Shown: positions 9,583-58,558 of the stretch, piece after piece
How the letters are laid out: each line of letters begins with the position of its first letter
How positions within the stretch are numbered: position 1 is the stretch's first letter
Assembly (NCBI GenBank): GCA_937121175.1
Contig: CAKZKD010000003.1
Coordinates: forward strand, 310,001-374,000
Direction of reading: 5' to 3'
From: an uncultured Flavobacteriales bacterium
GTDB taxonomy: Bacteria > Bacteroidota > Bacteroidia > Flavobacteriales_G > Salibacteraceae
DNA: 64,000 bases
Notes under the pieces: generated by a model
Told to the model about the DNA's origin: nothing
What the model saw: only the letters and a program-made list of their open reading frames with translations
The model's database searches: none
Program-made: the position numbers and the translations under genes

Positions 9583-12500
9583 TTGCAGTTGCTCCGTGCA
9601 CTTTCCGTAATTATTTGTTTGATGTGTTTTTCCTTAATTGGAACTGCACAGATTGATCGTACACCTTTCCCACACGACTCCACCCAGTTTTTTGAACGGT
9701 TAGAAAAAATGTTCAAGGAACTGAATGTTGGAAAAGCAGAAGGGCGAAAATTCATCAAAGAATTTGAACCTATTTGGTTTGGCGGAAACTTCGATCCTGA
9801 AATTAGAGAGGTTATTTATACCACTTGCGACAAAATGAACGAGAAGCGAATGCTTCCGCTTTCAGAGTTTAAGGCCTATTTACTTGCCGTAACTGCGTAT
9901 GTGAAGAGTGAGCGCGAAATTGAAAAATTCTCCGAATGGCATGACATTGTTGAACATAAATTGAAAGGACGCAGTAAGCGTCGATATCAAGAGTTTCTGG
10001 TTTTTAGTGAGTATTTGTTCAATGAGAATGCGTTGTACAAAACCAATTTAACTGTCTGGAAATCAGATAACCCATATTTCAGAATTTATTGGGATGATCA
10101 ACTAAAACAACCTGTTGTAGAAATAGAAGAGTTGGATTTGAAGTGCTTAGCTAAAAAAGACAGTGCCTCAATATTTGAAACAAAAGGAAAGTATTATCCA
10201 GACAAGAAACTGTGGAAAGGTTACGGTGGAATTGTGAACTGGCAGCGTGCTGGATACGAAGAAAATCAATTGGTTGCTAAAATTACGCGCTACGAAGTGC
10301 AAATGAACCATTCAAGTTATAAGGCCGATTCGGCAGTCTTTAGTAATGCTATTTATTTTGGGTCTTCTAAACTAATTGGAGATTTGGAGGACAGAGTTTT
10401 AGCGAATGTAACAGAAGATCATTCGACTTATCCGAGGTTCGATTCCTACAACGATAATTTAGAGATTCAGAATATTTTCCCAAAAGTGGATTATCACGGA
10501 GGATTCATTCAACGTGGAAATAGTTTCATTGGAAAAGGAAGTGATGAAAAACTAGCCAGAGTTGTCATTAATAGAAACGGGAAACCGTTTGTCGAGGCCT
10601 ATGCACACACATTCGTAATTCGAGAAAGTAAATTATCGGCAGAACCAGCAGAGGTGCTGATTTACTTAGATGGAGATACCATATTTCATCCCGGACTTAA
10701 TTTTAAATTCGATAATTCTAAACGTACACTAACGCTGTACAGAAATAAAGTGGGACGTTCAAAAGCTCCATTCTTCAACCACTTTCACGATTTAGATATG
10801 CACGTTGAGGAAATGGTTTGGAATATAGATGGAAATATGTTTCAGTTGAAACCGCTCATTGGTAATACAGACCGGTCGGCTTTGTTCGAGTCGAAAGATT
10901 ACTATCGGGCTTATCGTTACGATGAATTGTACGGTCTCGACAACCGACATCCTTTAGTAATTCTTAAAAAATGCTCGGAAGAAATGGGGTTAACAGAACT
11001 CACCACTTCTGATGTTGCTGCATGCTGGCATCTTCCATTTGTTGAGGTCGAACGAACACTTATGGTACTTTCAAATATTGGTTTTGTAAAGTTTGATTAC
11101 GATACTAAAATGGTTGAGATTTTGCCCAAAACATTTAATTACGTACAGGCGAGGTTAAAGAAAAGAGACTACGATATTATTCAAATAGTTTCAGACCCAC
11201 CAATCAGAAATGACAGGCAGTGCAAGGGCAACGATCATAATGCAGATTTTAATATTGACTCTTCGTACATGCAAATTCACGGAGTTCGGGGAATAAATTT
11301 ATCCGATTCGCACAACGTAACTATTTACCCATTGAATTGCGAGATTTTGTTGAGACCAAATCGGGATTTTGATTTTTCAGGTGTTGTAGTGGCAGGTAAC
11401 TTAGAGTTTTTTGGCCGTGACTTTAAATTCGAATACGATTCGTTCCAAATAAAAATGCCAAAAATTGACTCCATGAGAATTAATGTAAACATGGAAGAGT
11501 TGGATAAGTATGGTCAACCAAAAAAGAAGCGAGTAAAAACTGTAATTGAACAAATTAATGGAAAACTAGAAGTCGATAAATTCAATAATAAATCAGGTAA
11601 ACGCGCCATTAAAAGGTGGCCGGTGTTCACAAGTTATGAAGAATCATATACCTATTACGATCGTCCAGAAATAGAGGGTGGAGTCTATCATCGAGAAGAT
11701 TTTTATTTCAAGTTGGAACCCTTCGAATTCGATAGTTTGGACAACTTTGAAAACTCCAGTATTGAATTTAAAGGAACTTTTAAATCAGCTGGTATTTTCG
11801 AAGAATTTGAGGAAACACTCTCCTTACAAACTGATTATTCACTCGGATTCATTCATCCAACACCCGATGAAGGAATGCCGATGTACGATGGTAAAGGCAC
11901 GTTTACCGCCGACATATTATTGAGCCATGAAGGACTAAAGGGGACGGGATATGTGGATTACATTACTTCAACTACAGAATCTCAAAGTTTTTTCTTCCAT
12001 CCAGACTCTGCTTATGCAACAGCCCAGCAATTTGTTGTTGAATCGCAGTATCCAGGCCCTCCAGAATTCCCAAATGTCGAGGGAACAAACTTAGATTGGC
12101 ATTGGTACCCTTTCGAAGATACATTATTAGCTTCAAACTATGCTGACCCTTTTAGTATGTATGAAGCCGACAGAACATTTGATGGCACATTAATTTATAA
12201 TCCAGATAGTTTAATTGGTACTGGAAAGCCTGGTGAGCGTGGAAAATTTGAATTTGATAAAGCCATCACTGTCTCAAACGAAATTAGATTTAAATTCTAT
12301 GAGTTTTTTGCTGATACAGCTGACTTTGCACTTAAGACAGGTTCCTTAGGTGATTTGGGTTTCGATACCAAAAATATGAATGCTCACGTAAGTTTTAAGG
12401 ATAGAATTGGCCATTTTACAGCTAACAGTGAGGAATCGTCAGAAATATTATTTCGGAAAAATGAATACATGGCACACATGGACGAATTTACTTGGTACAT

Positions 12501-14097
12501 GGATGATGACTTGGTTGACCTTACTGCGAAAAAACGTAATGTACAAGAAGGCGCAGGTGGTGAAGTTGAAATTGAAGGAGCCAAACTTGTCGATATTAGT
12601 AAACACGATAAATCGATTCAAGACAGTTTGTTCTTCTATTCTAGCTCCTGTAAATTCGATATTAAGAGGGAAATTATCACTGCCGATAAAGTTCCATACG
12701 TTGATATTGCCGATGCTCGAATAATTCCAGATAGCGGAAGAATTGTAGTCCTTAGAGCGGCTGAAATAAAACAGCTTAAGAACGCTCAAATCATCGCGAA
12801 CCGAGAAAACAAATTCCATAAAATCTACAATTCTACCCTTGATATTGAAAATCGAGTTGATATGAAAGGAAAAGGAAAGTACGATTACAAAGATATTGAC
12901 GGTGTGGTTTCCGTAATTGAACTTTCCGAAATTTTTGTGAGCTCACAATTGCAAACTAATGCTACAGGGGATATTCCGAAAACCCAGGACTTCTATTTGA
13001 ACACACGTTTCAGGTACCAGGGAGGTGTCGAATTGGAGTCGAGTAAAGAACTACTGCAGTTTTCGGGTTTGACCCAAGTGGTGCACGAATGTGAACAACT
13101 TACCACGCCATGGATTCAATTTGAAGCCTATTTAGATCCAATTGATATTCTCATACCAATTGACACAAATACAACAACCGAAAATGGTAAAAAAGTACAC
13201 GTAGGCCAGATGATGGGAAGTTTACCAAGCAAAGTTTATTCTCTATTCGGCGGAATACCTGCAAAACCAAATGATGATATTATTTCAACAGTCACTGGTG
13301 TGATTGGGTACAATTTCAGTCAAAAGGAATATAGAGTCGGTAGCGAACAAAAAGTAAATATTCCGAATCTTACGGGTAATTATTTTGTGCTGAAAACAGA
13401 GGAATGTATCGTTAATTTTGAAGGAGAACACGGTTGGGGAGCGGATGTAGGTAGAGTAGAAATGAAACCAATAAGTCGGTTGAGACACAACCTAAATAAT
13501 GACTCGGTTTCGTTGCAAACCTCTCTATTGCTAGATTTTTTCTTTGAAGATAAAGCGATGAAAATATTGGCAAAAGATTTCGAAGAGTCACAAAATGATA
13601 GAGTAGATTATGATGATGCTACTTATTCTTACGGACTGAAATCGATAATTGGAGAAGAAGAAGGAAATAAAATAAAGGCCGACGTGGGTTTGACAGGTAA
13701 AATGAAAAAAGTACCTGATGAGCTTTCCAGTTTACTATTCATAACCAATATGGAATTGTATTGGAATCATCAAAAAATGGCATTTCAAAATAGAGGTCAA
13801 ATTGGAATTGGGAATTCGTATAAAAATCAGGTTAACAGAATGGTAGATGGTAAGTTTGAAGTAAAAATCAAACGATCTGGAGACCGATTTATGATGCAAA
13901 TCAAAAAAGATAAGTCGGATTGGTACTTCTTTACTTACGCGGTTGAAATAATGCAAACCGTATCTACAAATGACAAATATAACTTAGCAATAAAAGACGC
14001 CAAAAAGACCAAACAAGAACGAACCAAGGGTCAAGCAAAGTTTAAATTCATCCCTACAACTAGAGCAAAGGCCAATCAACTATTACGGCAATTTTAG
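9583..14097 (+). CDS. Very large secreted/envelope protein of unknown function
   Basis: The 1504-residue product begins with a signal peptide (RALSVIICLMCFSLIGTAQ, cleavage near residue 23). I recognise no domain. After a short helical N-terminal part (about residues 25-150) most of the chain is beta-rich, with repeated strands of the kind seen in OstA/LptD-N or TamB-like solenoids, for example SGVVVAGNLEFFGRDF near residue 605. One segment around 455-515 looks helical, like a small winged-helix or docking unit. Asp/Tyr/Phe content is high and cysteines are few. No transmembrane helix or type IX sorting domain is visible, so it is probably periplasmic or attached to the outer membrane. The start is uncertain: only TTG codons (9583, 9589) precede the signal-peptide core. 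Confidence 0.85.
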   Translation: MQLLRALSVIICLMCFSLIGTAQIDRTPFPHDSTQFFERLEKMFKELNVGKAEGRKFIKEFEPIWFGGNFDPEIREVIYTTCDKMNEKRMLPLSEFKAYLLAVTAYVKSEREIEKFSEWHDIVEHKLKGRSKRRYQEFLVFSEYLFNENALYKTNLTVWKSDNPYFRIYWDDQLKQPVVEIEELDLKCLAKKDSASIFETKGKYYPDKKLWKGYGGIVNWQRAGYEENQLVAKITRYEVQMNHSSYKADSAVFSNAIYFGSSKLIGDLEDRVLANVTEDHSTYPRFDSYNDNLEIQNIFPKVDYHGGFIQRGNSFIGKGSDEKLARVVINRNGKPFVEAYAHTFVIRESKLSAEPAEVLIYLDGDTIFHPGLNFKFDNSKRTLTLYRNKVGRSKAPFFNHFHDLDMHVEEMVWNIDGNMFQLKPLIGNTDRSALFESKDYYRAYRYDELYGLDNRHPLVILKKCSEEMGLTELTTSDVAACWHLPFVEVERTLMVLSNIGFVKFDYDTKMVEILPKTFNYVQARLKKRDYDIIQIVSDPPIRNDRQCKGNDHNADFNIDSSYMQIHGVRGINLSDSHNVTIYPLNCEILLRPNRDFDFSGVVVAGNLEFFGRDFKFEYDSFQIKMPKIDSMRINVNMEELDKYGQPKKKRVKTVIEQINGKLEVDKFNNKSGKRAIKRWPVFTSYEESYTYYDRPEIEGGVYHREDFYFKLEPFEFDSLDNFENSSIEFKGTFKSAGIFEEFEETLSLQTDYSLGFIHPTPDEGMPMYDGKGTFTADILLSHEGLKGTGYVDYITSTTESQSFFFHPDSAYATAQQFVVESQYPGPPEFPNVEGTNLDWHWYPFEDTLLASNYADPFSMYEADRTFDGTLIYNPDSLIGTGKPGERGKFEFDKAITVSNEIRFKFYEFFADTADFALKTGSLGDLGFDTKNMNAHVSFKDRIGHFTANSEESSEILFRKNEYMAHMDEFTWYMDDDLVDLTAKKRNVQEGAGGEVEIEGAKLVDISKHDKSIQDSLFFYSSSCKFDIKREIITADKVPYVDIADARIIPDSGRIVVLRAAEIKQLKNAQIIANRENKFHKIYNSTLDIENRVDMKGKGKYDYKDIDGVVSVIELSEIFVSSQLQTNATGDIPKTQDFYLNTRFRYQGGVELESSKELLQFSGLTQVVHECEQLTTPWIQFEAYLDPIDILIPIDTNTTTENGKKVHVGQMMGSLPSKVYSLFGGIPAKPNDDIISTVTGVIGYNFSQKEYRVGSEQKVNIPNLTGNYFVLKTEECIVNFEGEHGWGADVGRVEMKPISRLRHNLNNDSVSLQTSLLLDFFFEDKAMKILAKDFEESQNDRVDYDDATYSYGLKSIIGEEEGNKIKADVGLTGKMKKVPDELSSLLFITNMELYWNHQKMAFQNRGQIGIGNSYKNQVNRMVDGKFEVKIKRSGDRFMMQIKKDKSDWYFFTYAVEIMQTVSTNDKYNLAIKDAKKTKQERTKGQAKFKFIPTTRAKANQLLRQF

Positions 14098-52783: not shown

Positions 52784-54364
52784 TTACAAGTATTTCTTTA
52801 CCAGTTTTTCTATCGTCATTCCTTGAACTAGAATTGAGAACACAACCACACAATATGTAATTGTAACAATTAGGTACTTAACGTCTGTTCCTATTTGCTC
52901 ACCACTTAATGAAAGCGCTAAGGCAATTGATATTCCACCTCTTAGGCCACCCCACGCTAGAATAGGAATGGTGCCTTTTGCAGAACGTTTGAAGAAATCA
53001 AGAATAGTTACAGGTAAGGCAACTCCGATGAATCGTCCAGCTAGAATAATAAAAATGCTAATGATTCCAATTTGGAAGAAGGCACTTGAACTTTCTTCAA
53101 TGATAATAAGCATTTCAAGACCAATAAGTATGAACAGAATAGCGTTCATTGCCTCATCAACTAGGTGCCAAAACTTCATAACATACTCACCAGCAATACC
53201 TTCAATTTCTTCTCCATTTTCATCAAGTTCTCCATGGCTAGCGTTTCCTCGGCCAATAATAAGGCCCATAACCACCATAGCTAAAGGTGCCGAAATATGA
53301 AGGTGAACGGCGATTTGAGTTCCAACCAAAACAAGTGCTAGGGTAGTAAGTACCTCAAGCTCTTCGTGAGCATTGTCAATTACAACCAATAACCAGTAGC
53401 CTAATGCCCCAAACACAGCACCTAATAAAAGTCCACCAAACACTTCTTTTCCGAATAGAAACGCAACTGAACCGGCAGTAATTTCTTCGCTTCCGCCATG
53501 GCTAGAGCCACCAGTGGCAATAGCTAAAATTGTAATAAATACAACAACACCAATCCCATCATTAAACAAAGACTCACCTTCAATTTTTATTTGTAAGTTT
53601 TTGGAAATGTTTGTTGTTTTTAAAATTGCCAAAACCGCAATTGGGTCAGTAGGTGAAATTAGTGCACCCAGTAATAAGCAATGAATAAACTTAATATCCA
53701 TATTTAAATCGAACAACCCTAAGAAATAGAAAATCGCCGTTCCAATCAAAAATGTTGAAATTAATGTACCGAAAATGGCAAGAATGAAGACCGATGCAGA
53801 CTCCTCTTTAAGTTTATCGATATCAACATGCAACGCTCCAGCGTATAGAAGAAAACTAAGCATTATATTCAGAAGAACCTCAGTGAAGTCAACGTTTCGC
53901 ATAATGTTTTCAGCTCCTTCTCGCAATGAAGGGAAAATAAAGCCAGCGGCTACAATCAGTAAACTTAGAACCAATGCTTGCAGCATCAAACCTATAGTAC
54001 CGGGTAACTTTATATAATGAATGTTGATGAAAGTGAATAAAGCTGCCAACAGTACCAGTAAGGCAATTAAGTCAAGCGTTGACATTCCTTGGCTGTGTCC
54101 ATGGCTATCATGGCTTTCCGCCTTAGCTGAAGTATGATTGTGCGCTTCTTCAACAACTTGCTCTTCCTCAGTTACTGGTTCCATTACAACAGCTTCTTCT
54201 ATATTTTCTGTCTTTACCGGTTCAGTAACGATTTCTGTTTCCGTTTCGTTCGAATTCATACCATCCGAAATTTGGTTTCCTTCTTCTTGACCAAAGGTCA
54301 ATCCCATCATAAAAATGCCGATTACAGACATAAATATGAACTTAAAGCTCCTTCTCATTTTCAT
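52784..54364 (-). CDS. CPA1-type Na+/H+ antiporter with secreted-style acidic/His N-terminal extension
   Basis: The 526-residue protein is a monovalent cation/proton antiporter of about twelve helices. It contains the transport-site motifs LISPTDPIAVLAIL and GESLFNDGIGVVVF (the family ND pair), plus GRFIGVALP and a RGGISIAL arginine helix. Unusually, the transporter core (from about residue 95) is preceded by a signal peptide (FIFMSVIGIFMMGLTFGQ), a Glu-rich stretch (about 28-75) and a His-rich patch (HNHTSAKAESHDSHGHS). It probably exchanges Na+ or K+ for protons. Confidence 0.92.
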   Translation of the reverse strand: MKMRRSFKFIFMSVIGIFMMGLTFGQEEGNQISDGMNSNETETEIVTEPVKTENIEEAVVMEPVTEEEQVVEEAHNHTSAKAESHDSHGHSQGMSTLDLIALLVLLAALFTFINIHYIKLPGTIGLMLQALVLSLLIVAAGFIFPSLREGAENIMRNVDFTEVLLNIMLSFLLYAGALHVDIDKLKEESASVFILAIFGTLISTFLIGTAIFYFLGLFDLNMDIKFIHCLLLGALISPTDPIAVLAILKTTNISKNLQIKIEGESLFNDGIGVVVFITILAIATGGSSHGGSEEITAGSVAFLFGKEVFGGLLLGAVFGALGYWLLVVIDNAHEELEVLTTLALVLVGTQIAVHLHISAPLAMVVMGLIIGRGNASHGELDENGEEIEGIAGEYVMKFWHLVDEAMNAILFILIGLEMLIIIEESSSAFFQIGIISIFIILAGRFIGVALPVTILDFFKRSAKGTIPILAWGGLRGGISIALALSLSGEQIGTDVKYLIVTITYCVVVFSILVQGMTIEKLVKKYL

Positions 54365-54433: not shown

Positions 54434-54516
54434 GAAATCCTAATTATCAATTTAAGGTACTGTTTATCAATCTGTTAATTGATATTTGATTGTTGAAACT
54501 CAGTGGTTTCCAAACC

Positions 54517-54546
54517 TTGGTTAACTTGTTTAGTTTTCTATTTTAG
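54517..54546 (+). promoter_or_regulatory. Candidate promoter of the A-B-A-B-A array (TTG-N19-TATTTTAG)
   Basis: TTG (54517-54519) and TATTTTAG (54539-54546, one mismatch to TAnnTTTG) have the ideal 19-base spacing. The first array gene starts 25 bases later. Confidence 0.45.
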
Positions 54547-54571
54547 TGGCTTCTCAAAAAACAAGATTAAA

Positions 54572-55093
54572 ATGAGCTTTAAGGTTGGCAGTCTCGCATT
54601 ATTAGCAGTTCTTTTCTCGGTTCAGTTTGGATATGCGCAGCGTAAGAAAGGTAAATCGCAAAAGGAGACGCCTCAGATGACAGTTAATGAAAGCTGTACC
54701 TACAAGGAAACTGCCGAAAAAATTAAAGTCGAAATTGCCCCATTTAAGTTAGATAAGATAACTCCTGCAAAAATTCATTATAAGGCCTATACTCAAGTTA
54801 AGGAAATTGCTATTCCTATCTATCACAGTACGAAATATAAATTTGTGATAAATGCTGAGGGTATGCCAACAGGAGTGGAAATGAAGCTCACTGATAAACC
54901 ACATAAATTATCTACTGCAAAAGTGCTAACCCAAACAAGCGCCAAAACTTTTAGCTATGAAACACCGGCTGATTTCGAAGGGTCGCGTGTCTATTTAACC
55001 ATAAAAATACCGGGTGACCCTGAGTATAATAATCATGTTCGGAACCGTGGTTGTATCCTTGTGGGTGCTGGCTATGAAGATATCGACTTTTAA
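54572..55093 (+). CDS. Array family A, copy 1: small secreted protein
   Basis: The 173-residue product has a signal peptide (LALLAVLFSVQFGYAQ), then a basic RKKGKSQK stretch found only in this copy. It is followed by the family A domain of about 130 residues: a Cys near its start (ESCTY), APFKL, VKEIAIPIY, a KYKFVINAEGMP segment, DKPHKL, and RNRGCILVGAGYED at the end. Two cysteines that bracket the domain are conserved in all three copies and could pair. The predicted fold is all-beta. No named family is recognised. The ATG at 54572 was chosen over an upstream in-frame codon at 54503 that lies before the promoter. Confidence 0.8.
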   Translation: MSFKVGSLALLAVLFSVQFGYAQRKKGKSQKETPQMTVNESCTYKETAEKIKVEIAPFKLDKITPAKIHYKAYTQVKEIAIPIYHSTKYKFVINAEGMPTGVEMKLTDKPHKLSTAKVLTQTSAKTFSYETPADFEGSRVYLTIKIPGDPEYNNHVRNRGCILVGAGYEDIDF

Positions 55094-55173
55094 GGATCAA
55101 AAAACGATATGTCTAGGAAAACCCAGTTCAGTAAATTATATATATTCGCAACTAAAGCTTAAAAGCATAAATA

Positions 55174-56043
55174 ATGAATAAGAAAATCAGTTCAATATTA
55201 GTGGTGGCATCATGTATGCTAGCAATTTCTTGTGGAGAAACACAAGCTCCAAACGCTAATCCGGTTGAAGATAACGAAGAGGCGGTTGTCGAAGACGTTG
55301 TAGTTGCTGAAGAAGAAAACGAAGAACCAGAATTTATAATTCCTTCGGCGCTACAAATAAGTGCTATGTTCAAAAATTCTGGACTTTCATATATTGAGGG
55401 AATTACTAACTCTCCAGAAAATGTATCAAACTATCACTCGAAATTTGAAAAGCTTTTAAATTTTGGAGTATATAGTGGAGATTTGTTTTATTGTATTCTA
55501 AATGATCAATCTCAAAAATCAATACAATACTTAAAAGCGATCAGACAATTGGCTGATGAAACCGGAATGGCAGGAATTTTCAATGCAGGGCCATTATTTG
55601 AAAGATTTGAAGCTAATATTGGAAATAAAGATTCTGTATTCAATATCATGCTTGAGTTTCAAGAGAAAACTGATGTTTTAATAGCTGAAAATAACGAAGA
55701 GCATTCGGCAATGGTAATTTTTGCAGGTGCATGGGTTGAAGGAATGTATATTGGACTTGATGCGGCAAGAAATGATGGTAATGAGAACCTGAAAGCTCGG
55801 TTGGCAGAGCAAATGACGATAGTGGAGAATATTATCAGTGGATTGAAATATCAGCCCAACAGAAATGAACAGGTTAAGGGAATACAAGCACAATATCAAG
55901 CAGTGTATGATTACTTCATGTCTATCGAAGGTGTGAAAGGAGAAGATGAATATTCCTATGACGTTTCAGCTTTAACAGATGAAAACTGGATGAAGCTATA
56001 TGAAATGGTTCGAGATTTGCGTAGCGATATAACTAAATCATAA
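55174..56043 (+). CDS. Array family B, copy 1: helical lipoprotein
   Basis: The 289-residue product is a lipoprotein (ILVVASCMLAISCGET) with an acidic linker (about residues 25-50) and then a helical domain of about 230 residues. That domain is shared with the second B gene: LPSALQI-type start (here IPSALQIS), SGLSYIEGITNSPENV, LNFGVYSGDLFYCILNDQSQKS, GNKDSVFNIMLEFQEKTD, and FAGAWVEGMYIG. The function is unknown. It lies 80 bases after A1 and 26 before A2 and is probably in the same transcript as A2, B2 and A3. Confidence 0.8.
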   Translation: MNKKISSILVVASCMLAISCGETQAPNANPVEDNEEAVVEDVVVAEEENEEPEFIIPSALQISAMFKNSGLSYIEGITNSPENVSNYHSKFEKLLNFGVYSGDLFYCILNDQSQKSIQYLKAIRQLADETGMAGIFNAGPLFERFEANIGNKDSVFNIMLEFQEKTDVLIAENNEEHSAMVIFAGAWVEGMYIGLDAARNDGNENLKARLAEQMTIVENIISGLKYQPNRNEQVKGIQAQYQAVYDYFMSIEGVKGEDEYSYDVSALTDENWMKLYEMVRDLRSDITKS

Positions 56044-56069
56044 TTTACTAAATTCTAATTTTGAAAAAC

Positions 56070-56543
56070 ATGAGAAATTTATTTTTGGTTATTGCTCTGT
56101 CGATTTCAACCTTGGCCATTCAAGCTCAAACTGTTCGTAATTCATGTAAGTGGGATGACGCAGTAAAAAAGAAATGTAAGGGAGATTTAAAACCCTTTCA
56201 TTACTATGCATTTAAAATTACGAAGATTACATTTTCGAATAAAAGTCAATTTAAGGAAGTTGAGGTTCCTTTGTTCCACGATGCGAATTATAGATTCGTT
56301 TTCAATACGGAAGGCCTTCATCAAGATATCAAAATTGAAATCTACGATAAGCCAGCAAGCAACTCCAGTAGAAAGAAAATTTACGATGGCACAAGCCATG
56401 AAAGACATTTTGTTTACGACCCTCCAAAGAGTGCAACGCACAATAGAATTTACATTGATTATATTATCCCAGCGTCAAGCAACACTGATGCAAGTGTTAT
56501 AGATAAAGGGTGTATCATTTTTTACTCAGGGTTTAAAAACTAA
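56070..56543 (+). CDS. Array family A, copy 2: small secreted protein
   Basis: The 157-residue product has a signal peptide (LFLVIALSISTLAIQAQ) and the family A domain: SCKWDDAVKKKC, KPFHYYA, KEVEVPLFHD, YRFVFNTEGL, IKIEIYDKP, and DKGCIIFYSGF at the end. Compared with A3 it shares the PLF-D, VFN-E, IKI-IYD and KGC blocks, so A2 and A3 are closer to each other than to A1. It lies between the two B lipoprotein genes. The ATG at 56070 was chosen; a TTG at 56061 is in frame. Confidence 0.8.
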   Translation: MRNLFLVIALSISTLAIQAQTVRNSCKWDDAVKKKCKGDLKPFHYYAFKITKITFSNKSQFKEVEVPLFHDANYRFVFNTEGLHQDIKIEIYDKPASNSSRKKIYDGTSHERHFVYDPPKSATHNRIYIDYIIPASSNTDASVIDKGCIIFYSGFKN

Positions 56544-56570
56544 TTATTATTACTCAAAGTATTCCTAGAA

Positions 56571-57440
56571 ATGGATAAAAAGATAATAGCAGCAATTTGT
56601 ATTTCTACCATGATAATGGGTTCATGTGGAGAAGCAACAACGGAGCAAGTTTCAAAAGAAGAACAAGCACAAGATGATTTGCTAAATGAAATGGCAACTG
56701 AAGGAGAGGATGTAGAAGAAGAATCTTTTTACCTGCCTTCTGCTCTTCAAATAGGTTCGATTTTTCAAAAGTCGGGGTTAAAGTATATTGAAGGAATCAC
56801 TAACTCGCCCTCAAATGTTGAGCAATACATTACCAAGTCTCAGAAAATTTTGAACTTTGGAGTGTATTCGGCTGATTTGGCATATATCATTCTTAATGGT
56901 CAAAGTCAAAACGCCACAGAATACCTAAAAACCATTAAAGTTCTTTCTGACAAAATTGGCTTCGGAGCTGTTTTTGAATCTCAAGACTTGATGGAAAAGT
57001 TTGAGAGAAGCTTAGGCAATCAAGATTCCATTATCAATGTGATGATTGATATTCAAATGCAAACGGATATGTTCGTTGATGAAAATAATTTGCAGGATGT
57101 TACCTACATTATCTTTGCAGGGGCTTGGGTAGAAGGTATGTATCTTGGCGTCAAGGCATCGAATCAAGAAAACCAGCATATGATTTCCGGTAGATTGGTA
57201 GAGCAAATGACCATTTTGGATAATCTAGTTCGAGCTCTACGGTCGAACAAAAATCTTACAGAAGATGTCGAACAGCTATCAAAGGATTTGAACAAACTTG
57301 ATAAGTTTTTCATGCGCTTAGAGGAGAATAAAAATTCGCAAAATATTGCGTCGTTTAGAGATTACAAAATTTCAAAAGAGCACTTAGCCGAATTATCTGA
57401 AATGATAATTGAATTAAGAACTCGAATTACTAAAGTTTAA
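56571..57440 (+). CDS. Array family B, copy 2: helical lipoprotein
   Basis: The 289-residue product has exactly the length of B1. It is a lipoprotein (ICISTMIMGSCGEA) with an acidic linker. The domain repeats the B blocks: LPSALQIGS, SGLKYIEGITNSPSNV, LNFGVYSADLAYIILNGQSQ, GNQDSIINVMIDIQMQTD, FAGAWVEGMYLG, and a basic-acidic C-terminal helix ending ELRTRITKV. The equal length, conserved blocks and alternating positions show that an A-B pair was duplicated in tandem. Gap to A2 is 27 bases; A3 starts 12 bases after its stop. Confidence 0.8.
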   Translation: MDKKIIAAICISTMIMGSCGEATTEQVSKEEQAQDDLLNEMATEGEDVEEESFYLPSALQIGSIFQKSGLKYIEGITNSPSNVEQYITKSQKILNFGVYSADLAYIILNGQSQNATEYLKTIKVLSDKIGFGAVFESQDLMEKFERSLGNQDSIINVMIDIQMQTDMFVDENNLQDVTYIIFAGAWVEGMYLGVKASNQENQHMISGRLVEQMTILDNLVRALRSNKNLTEDVEQLSKDLNKLDKFFMRLEENKNSQNIASFRDYKISKEHLAELSEMIIELRTRITKV

Positions 57441-57452
57441 ATTAGAGAAGTA

Positions 57453-57959
57453 ATGAGAATTTTATTATCAGTAATATGTTTGGTTGCTTCGAGTTATTTG
57501 TCTGCTCAGCAAGCAGCTTCTTCATACTGTCCAAAATCGGATGTTGTTGTTAAGTGCAGAAAAGCATTAGTTCCGTTTAAGTACACCAATATGGTGACGA
57601 ATCGTATTGTTTTCAAGAGATTCAATTACGTAAAAGAAATTAGTATTCCTTTATTCTATGATGCTAGATATCGCTTGGTTTTTAATGCTGAATTGTTGCC
57701 AAAGGATATCAAAATAAGGATTTATGATGCGCCACAAACCGAAAAGAAACGTGAACAACTTGCTGAGTTCGAAAGCTCACAAGGACAATTCACATTTGAG
57801 CCTGATGCAGCTACTGGCTTGTACGAAGTTTATGTAGATTTTCTCATCCCTGCTTACATAGCTGAAGATGGTTCATCATTTATTAAAGGCTGTGTTATTT
57901 TAATGACCGGATATGAAGACGAAGTATCTGACGCCTTCGGAGATAGTGGTTCAGAATAG
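57453..57959 (+). CDS. Array family A, copy 3: small secreted protein
   Basis: The 168-residue product has a signal peptide (ILLSVICLVASSYLSAQ). Its family A blocks are SYCPKSDVVVKC, VPFKYTNM, VKEISIPLFYDARYRLVFNAEL, IKIRIYDAP, VYVDFLIPAY and FIKGCVILMTGYED, and it has an acidic tail unique to this copy. It is the last gene of the array and is followed 22 bases later by a perfect terminator. Confidence 0.8.
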   Translation: MRILLSVICLVASSYLSAQQAASSYCPKSDVVVKCRKALVPFKYTNMVTNRIVFKRFNYVKEISIPLFYDARYRLVFNAELLPKDIKIRIYDAPQTEKKREQLAEFESSQGQFTFEPDAATGLYEVYVDFLIPAYIAEDGSSFIKGCVILMTGYEDEVSDAFGDSGSE

Positions 57960-57981
57960 AAATGAAATTCAAATAAATTTT

Positions 57982-58006
57982 AAAGTCCCTTATGGGACTT
58001 TTTTTT
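57982..58006 (+). terminator. Intrinsic terminator of the A-B-A-B-A array
   Basis: The arms AAAGTCCC (57982-57989) and GGGACTTT (57994-58001) pair perfectly around a four-base TTAT loop. A T-tract runs to 58006. It lies 22 bases after the A3 stop. Confidence 0.93.
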
Positions 58007-58027
58007 GCTCAATACTTTCAAGTTATT

Positions 58028-58558
58028 ATGTTTAGATTAGAATTTGAAGCACCACTTGAAAAACACGATTCTTCTTTGGGCTGGTATTACATAATTTATG
58101 TACCGTTAGAACTTATTTCAGAATTTGGAACTGAAAAAAATCCAAGGGCCAAGGTTACATTCAATAAAAAGGAAGTTGCTCACATTTCAGTTAAAAGTAA
58201 AGGCGATGATAGGTTTGTAGTTATTAAGAGTAAGCTTAGAACTAATCTTGGGTTGGTCGTTGGCGAGTTGACTCACGTTATAATAGAAAAGGATGACTCA
58301 AAGTTCGGTATGCCCATGCCTGAAGAGTTTGGAGAAATGTTAGCTCAGGAAGAAGAGGCCGAACGCTATTTTAATGCACTGACACCTGGAAAGCAAAGAA
58401 GCTTAATTTATATGGTGTCTCAGCTCAAAAATTCAGAACCCAGAGTTAAAAAGGCGTTGGCAATTATTGAACATCTTAAGGAACAGCAGGGAGAATTGGA
58501 TTTTCGAGTACTGAATCAGAAAATCAAGGAAGTGAATAATAGATTTAAATCAATTTGA
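58028..58558 (+). CDS. DUF1905 / YdeI-like protein
   Basis: The 176-residue cytoplasmic protein has an N-terminal DUF1905 beta-barrel domain (FRLEFEAPLEKHD, GWYYIIYVP, LGLVVGELTHVIIEKDD; about residues 1-95) and a C-terminal YdeI/OmpD-associated helical part (LTPGKQRSLIYMVSQLK, RVKKALAIIEHLKE). The molecular role of this family is unknown. The ATG at 58028 was chosen because the in-frame codon at 57992 lies inside the preceding terminator hairpin. Confidence 0.85.
   Translation: MFRLEFEAPLEKHDSSLGWYYIIYVPLELISEFGTEKNPRAKVTFNKKEVAHISVKSKGDDRFVVIKSKLRTNLGLVVGELTHVIIEKDDSKFGMPMPEEFGEMLAQEEEAERYFNALTPGKQRSLIYMVSQLKNSEPRVKKALAIIEHLKEQQGELDFRVLNQKIKEVNNRFKSI

Follow-up and report, generated by a model that had tools for sequence, protein, structure and literature searches.

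In a 64,000-nucleotide stretch of DNA from an uncultured Flavobacteriales bacterium (contig CAKZKD010000003.1, positions 310,001 to 374,000; hereafter the window), we identified five consecutive genes that alternate between a small secreted protein, A, and a helical lipoprotein, B. The reading that we favour overall, at a probability of roughly 0.6, is that A, a predicted GOLD-like beta-sandwich held by the lipoprotein B, acts as the envelope-side module of an exporter resembling ABCG-type ATP-binding cassette (ABC) transporters. That A and B are physical partners, as the original prediction from the sequence had proposed, we hold with high confidence on the basis of their adjacency, their correlated distances and a confident model of the fused pair.

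Two protein families encoded as a pair

The array reads A1-B1-A2-B2-A3, with tight spacing and on the forward strand throughout. The secreted, predicted GOLD-like proteins are encoded by A1 (54572-55093, 173 aa; alternative GTG start at 54503), which is the first copy and lacks a B of its own, A2 (56070-56543, 157 aa; alternative TTG start at 56061) and A3 (57453-57959, 168 aa). B1 (55174-56043, lipobox ...AISC-G), directly upstream of A2, and B2 (56571-57440, lipobox ...MGSC-G) each encode a helical lipoprotein of 289 aa. These open reading frame (ORF) coordinates agree with the gene order, place and sizes given in the original prediction, which had also described A and B as unrelated families, each with its own conserved blocks and neither of them nameable, and these statements held up as well. 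Specifically, B1 and B2 share 41% identity (BLASTP E 8e-81) as well as the EGITNSP, FGVYS-DL and FAGAWVEGMY blocks, the three A copies are 26-36% identical in pairwise comparisons (E 2e-20 to 8e-37) and share the cysteines and the PF, KE-IP and KGC/GC blocks, and BLASTP of A against B found no similarity. The A proteins begin with a signal-peptide-like N terminus and lack a lipobox; two of their cysteines are invariant. For B, alignments of 36 and 37 proteins show a lipobox cysteine in every sequence, which identifies these as lipoproteins.

Both A and B are protein families without named relatives in the libraries that we searched. Single A and B sequences gave no meaningful score against Pfam-A, NCBIfam, PHROGs or PADLOC, nor did they match defence or toxin families in Pfam-A, NCBIfam and PADLOC, and searches of diverse relatives (34 of A, 37 of B) against Pfam and NCBIfam returned noise only. 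Profile comparison with solved structures gave coiled-coil-like matches for B, confined to its C-terminal helices (occludin, E 0.001, and RPN9), and one weak match for A (BspA, E 3e-4). We found no paper in the open literature on this pair or on GOLD-domain lipoproteins.

We looked for the two families in 100 relatives (class sample), in 247 genomes sampled evenly across the phylum (phylum sample) and in named genomes. The pairing count covered 2817 ORFs and used profiles broad enough for diverged relatives; A was counted if it lay no more than 300 nt behind B and had the same orientation. By this measure 119 of the 132 testable B genes have an A behind them, so that the two families are genomic neighbours, as the original prediction had suggested checking. 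Seen from the other side, 157 of 163 A genes are preceded either by B (119) or by another A (38), and each of the remaining six is the A1 that heads an array like the one described here. The gap between B and A has a median of 18 nt among 82 window-type pairs, and B-A-A and B-A-A-A arrangements occur at many loci. We rejected the idea of B being A-less outside the array, as most such genes have a diverged A' right behind them. Against these counts (119 of 132 pairings, with 163 A genes among 2817 ORFs), an accidental neighbourhood of two unrelated secreted families, which has in its favour only the absence of a known function and is further contradicted by the correlated evolution described next, can be taken as refuted.

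Across 36 loci with B, A and thrS, the distances among B proteins correlate with those among A proteins at 0.62, and the partial correlation controlling for thrS is 0.54, a value that none of 2000 permutations reached. By eye, the pairs fall into three types, namely the window type, a 'HNGQ...YSGQ.YR' type and a 'FISDGQ.YRALL' type.

The distribution of the pair is patchy. B occurs in 79 of the 100 genomes of the class sample and window-type A (relatives of A3) in 40, and the pair is retained in ~50 sampled genera of the class; it is frequent in Crocinitomicaceae and in many uncultured Bacteroidia families, and the scan of named genomes yielded 78 loci, including Crocinitomix algicola and C. 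catalasitica. Across the phylum sample it is present in 5 of 247 genomes, a scarcity that may be why no profile for B or A exists. Window-type loci mostly adjoin thrS (thrS-infC-rpmI-rplT).

Predicted structures and cellular location

The AlphaFold2 model of A2 has a mean predicted local distance difference test score (pLDDT) of 95.2 and a predicted template modelling score (pTM) of 0.87. Most of the top rows of the structure search are GOLD domains, and the closest solved structures are those of p24 and Sec14-like proteins, with Z 8.2-8.9 and a root-mean-square deviation of 2.3-2.7 A across 92-97 residues. A is thus confidently predicted as a GOLD-like beta-sandwich in the sense of fold resemblance and not of membership in the GOLD family, and no Pfam GOLD family (the curated GOLD/EMP24 profile) appeared at E<=1 among 34 A members. 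While A resembles in predicted fold the GOLD domains of p24/TMED cargo receptors, Sec14-like proteins (supernatant protein factor) and ACBD3, it differs from them in that no sequence relation was found. Unlike them it is also bacterial, secreted and stand-alone, carries a conserved GC motif and has a helical lipoprotein as its partner.

B2 and A3 share a reading frame, with only a single TAA and twelve bases between them. Reading the stop as a residue, we modelled them as one fused chain from an alignment that combined 28 further, naturally in-frame pairs with unpaired rows. The resulting model has a pTM of 0.87 and a mean pLDDT of 88.8, with 61 of 444 residues poorly ordered. A chain of two freely oriented domains is expected to have a pTM well below 0.87, and AlphaFold therefore places A on B with confidence. 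This single modelled pairing answers favourably the structure prediction proposed in the original prediction, and a B-A complex is predicted from it. Many CUB-like and similar matches to the fused model span from B residue 27-32 to A residue ~431. Because they run from these B residues to the end of A, the sheet of A may gain an edge strand from B, namely from the stretch of tether just ahead of its conserved P-S (B2 ~45-54, ending S-F-Y-L). In the Foldseek search, no match to the fused model fell below 1e-3.

The signal for surface export of Bacteroidota lipoproteins (LES) consists of K-(D/E)2 at +3 or an S-D-D-D-like motif after the cysteine (PMC5080379). None of 84 lipobox-like rows, a few of which are possibly A rows, carries such a motif after the cysteine, and for this reason B more likely faces the periplasm than the cell surface, judging from sequence. 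A, in which we noticed no outer-membrane secretion tag, is also more likely periplasmic. The original prediction had placed a complex of lipid-anchored B and secreted A either at the surface or in the periplasm; the binding remains the best reading, and the surface location has become the less likely of the two. In this respect B, while a lipoprotein of the same phylum as those of the SusD-like, LES-bearing surface complexes, differs from them in lacking an LES in any row checked and in having no adjacent TonB-dependent receptor.

An ABCG-like exporter as a probable third component

We also identified an exporter protein of ~1020 residues, composed of a TerB domain, an ABC ATPase and an ABC-2 membrane domain, that recurs near B-A pairs. 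The ATPase lies N-terminal to the membrane domain, which is the ABCG-type order, and the two together match ABCG2 (E 1e-45), with ABCG proteins, among them the ABCG1 and ABCG2 chains, being the closest transporters of solved structure by sequence. The exporter is thus a variant of a known ABCG kind, to which it adds the N-terminal TerB domain; the interval between TerB and ATPase is FHA-like by eye only, its best profile match among solved structures being the kinase MEK1 at E 0.18. FHA-ABC fusions are known among ABCG-type exporters, e.g. the mycobacterial Rv1747, which to our knowledge is accompanied by no B-A pair. Our search of the open literature found no paper on TerB-FHA-ABC proteins in Bacteroidetes.

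Of 40 loci, 15 have the exporter gene immediately behind B-A and one more (L170) has it behind B alone, with the tight B-A-exporter runs being type III loci. Eight genomes from the family of the window (G004, G007, G011, G013, G017, G020, G021 and G024) have it near window-type B-A or in divergent orientation to it, often with a flavoprotein in between. G011 shows the order exporter, Na+/H+ exchanger, B-A-B-A-B-A, and the same kind of exchanger stands beside the array of the window. Moreover, B and the exporter co-occur. In the class sample, 74 genomes carry both, 5 (three of them incomplete) B only, none the exporter only and 21 neither (Fisher p 3e-17; p 4e-12 with one genome per family), and in the phylum sample the same 5 genomes carry both, while 242 of 242 others carry neither. 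On balance, adjacency and co-occurrence link B-A to the exporter.

Two further kinds of gene recur in these regions. A flavoprotein resembling pyridine-nucleotide-disulphide oxidoreductases is repeatedly found between window-type B-A and exporter in Crocinitomicaceae (L199-L204, e.g. L201 2783-4294), and genes for SiaB-like proteins (DUF6272) and for SiaC, which is a regulatory phosphoprotein, stand beside the exporter in several lineages (L191 5541-6487, L192 3589-4551, L206 96-455, L209 305-682 and L210 8705-9645), where phospho-control of the exporter is possible.

We hypothesize that B would be lipid-anchored and facing the periplasm, holding A in a stable one-to-one complex in which the end of the acidic tether of B (F/Y-x-L-P-S) would lie against the sheet of A, and the helical core of B would pack on A, as in the fused model. 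A would be a GOLD-like sandwich stabilised by a putative disulfide. This complex would serve as the envelope-side module of the TerB-ABC-ABC2 exporter, presumably through physical contact, and would probably receive, gate or deliver cargo crossing the inner membrane, with several versions of B-A acting as parallel adaptors. The cargo would most plausibly be a lipid or other hydrophobic molecule, although we offer a lipid-like substrate only tentatively, by analogy with what ABCG transporters and GOLD domains commonly do. More speculatively, B, A and the TerB-ABCG exporter could form an undescribed trans-envelope export machine of one Bacteroidota branch, in which lipoprotein-held A would take over a lipid or other hydrophobic product from the exporter in the periplasm, while in some lineages Sia-type phospho-signalling on the cytoplasmic side would control the exporter; as a whole, this extended scheme is doubtful. 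More generally, what had been anonymous 'hypothetical proteins' become a testable three-part envelope system, in which an old pair tracks a specific exporter.

Several observations weigh against the exporter-module reading. With respect to the pair, 13 B genes stand without an adjacent A, and the pTM argument comes without a decoy pairing and from two chains fused through a stop codon. The GOLD-like resemblance of A is modest at Z 8-9, with Bacillus Ena fibres scoring equally and CUB domains somewhat lower, which is why only a GOLD-like sandwich is claimed. With respect to the exporter, neither of its two copies in the window's genome (the L196/L197 pair) adjoins the array, the first (G000:C3 256197-259202) lying ~105 kb away beside smpB and the second (G000:C27 52554-55547) on another contig, and most window-type loci have thrS rather than the exporter as their neighbour. 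SiaC (PF09345), too, follows the distribution of B, albeit loosely (~69 of 79 B-positive versus 2 of 21 B-negative genomes), so that part of the co-occurrence of B and exporter reflects shared lineage, which may inflate it. A strict linkage of SiaC to B was rejected, as at least nine B-positive genomes of the window's family lack SiaC.

The placement beside thrS-infC-rpmI-rplT, the exporter copies located elsewhere and the like phyletic pattern of SiaC would all suit a B-A pair that forms an envelope complex of its own (e.g. in outer-membrane or peptidoglycan maintenance), its link to the exporter stemming from the shared ancestry of one Bacteroidota branch. This account sits poorly with the tight type III runs in 15 of 40 regions, with the window-type pairs that adjoin the exporter in several Crocinitomicaceae, and with the identity of B and exporter carriers, five among 247 phylum genomes; we consider it the strongest of the alternatives, yet improbable. 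Far less probable is a conflict system, in which secreted A would act as a weapon or inhibitor, lipid-anchored B would confer immunity to it or carry it, and conflict would have driven the copies apart. A small secreted protein with conserved cysteines, a lipoprotein partner and multiple divergent pairs in one genome would be in keeping with such a role. However, PADLOC gives no match, the exporter is a recurrent partner, and, unlike fast-turnover effector-immunity pairs, A1, A2 and A3 have one-to-one orthologues across genera and the pair stays beside thrS in many lineages.

Layout and surroundings of the array

The original prediction explained the alternating order by duplication of a whole A-B pair, which the comparison with relatives does not bear out: the repeating unit is B-A, with B upstream. 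In trees, A1, A2 and A3 form distinct orthologous lines retained in ~8 related genomes, and B1 has 1:1 orthologues in relatives. Because the A lines are orthologous and a B precedes the A1 orthologue in the B-A-B-A-B-A array of L075/G011, the array of the window is best read, from these sequence comparisons, as a B-A array minus its first B. The missing B explains the odd layout, and the array still offers two intact B-A pairs for biochemistry.

The perfect terminator that had been proposed for the end of the array was corroborated as an intrinsic terminator at 57982-58001 (+), AAAGTCCC-TTAT-GGGACTTT, with an 8-bp stem, a tetraloop and a T tract (-11.6 kcal/mol, z -3.9). At the other end, a candidate promoter, TTG-N19-TATTTTAG, can be read from the sequence at 54517-54546 (+). 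A generic sigma-70 scan, whose coverage does not extend to Bacteroidota promoters, found sites no more numerous than in shuffled sequence, and sigma-70 support for the array promoter was dropped on account of this lack of excess.

The Na+/H+ exchanger beside the array (52784-54364, -) has an acidic, His-rich N-terminal extension, and this exchanger-array neighbourhood is kept in seven loci. Directly after the terminator lies a gene fusing DUF1905 with OmdA/YdeI (57992-58558, +). Elsewhere in the same genome, a further pair, B-A', which has diverged and belongs to a different subtype (G000:C2 264636-266022; L010 4637-6023, -), sits between genes that we named by eye as dprA-like and tatD-like. 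In addition, two divergently transcribed B-like genes without an A are found beside thrS (G000:C5 202-2029, L009), and in one of them the P-S tether motif, which in other B proteins stands ahead of the helical core, is missing; such divergent A-less pairs also occur in L148, L151, L161 and L178 and are conserved in the window's family. Finally, positions 9583-14097 (+) of the window encode a 1504-aa protein with no Pfam match, which is followed by a plsY-like gene and a gene for a 2292-aa PD40/SPOR protein.

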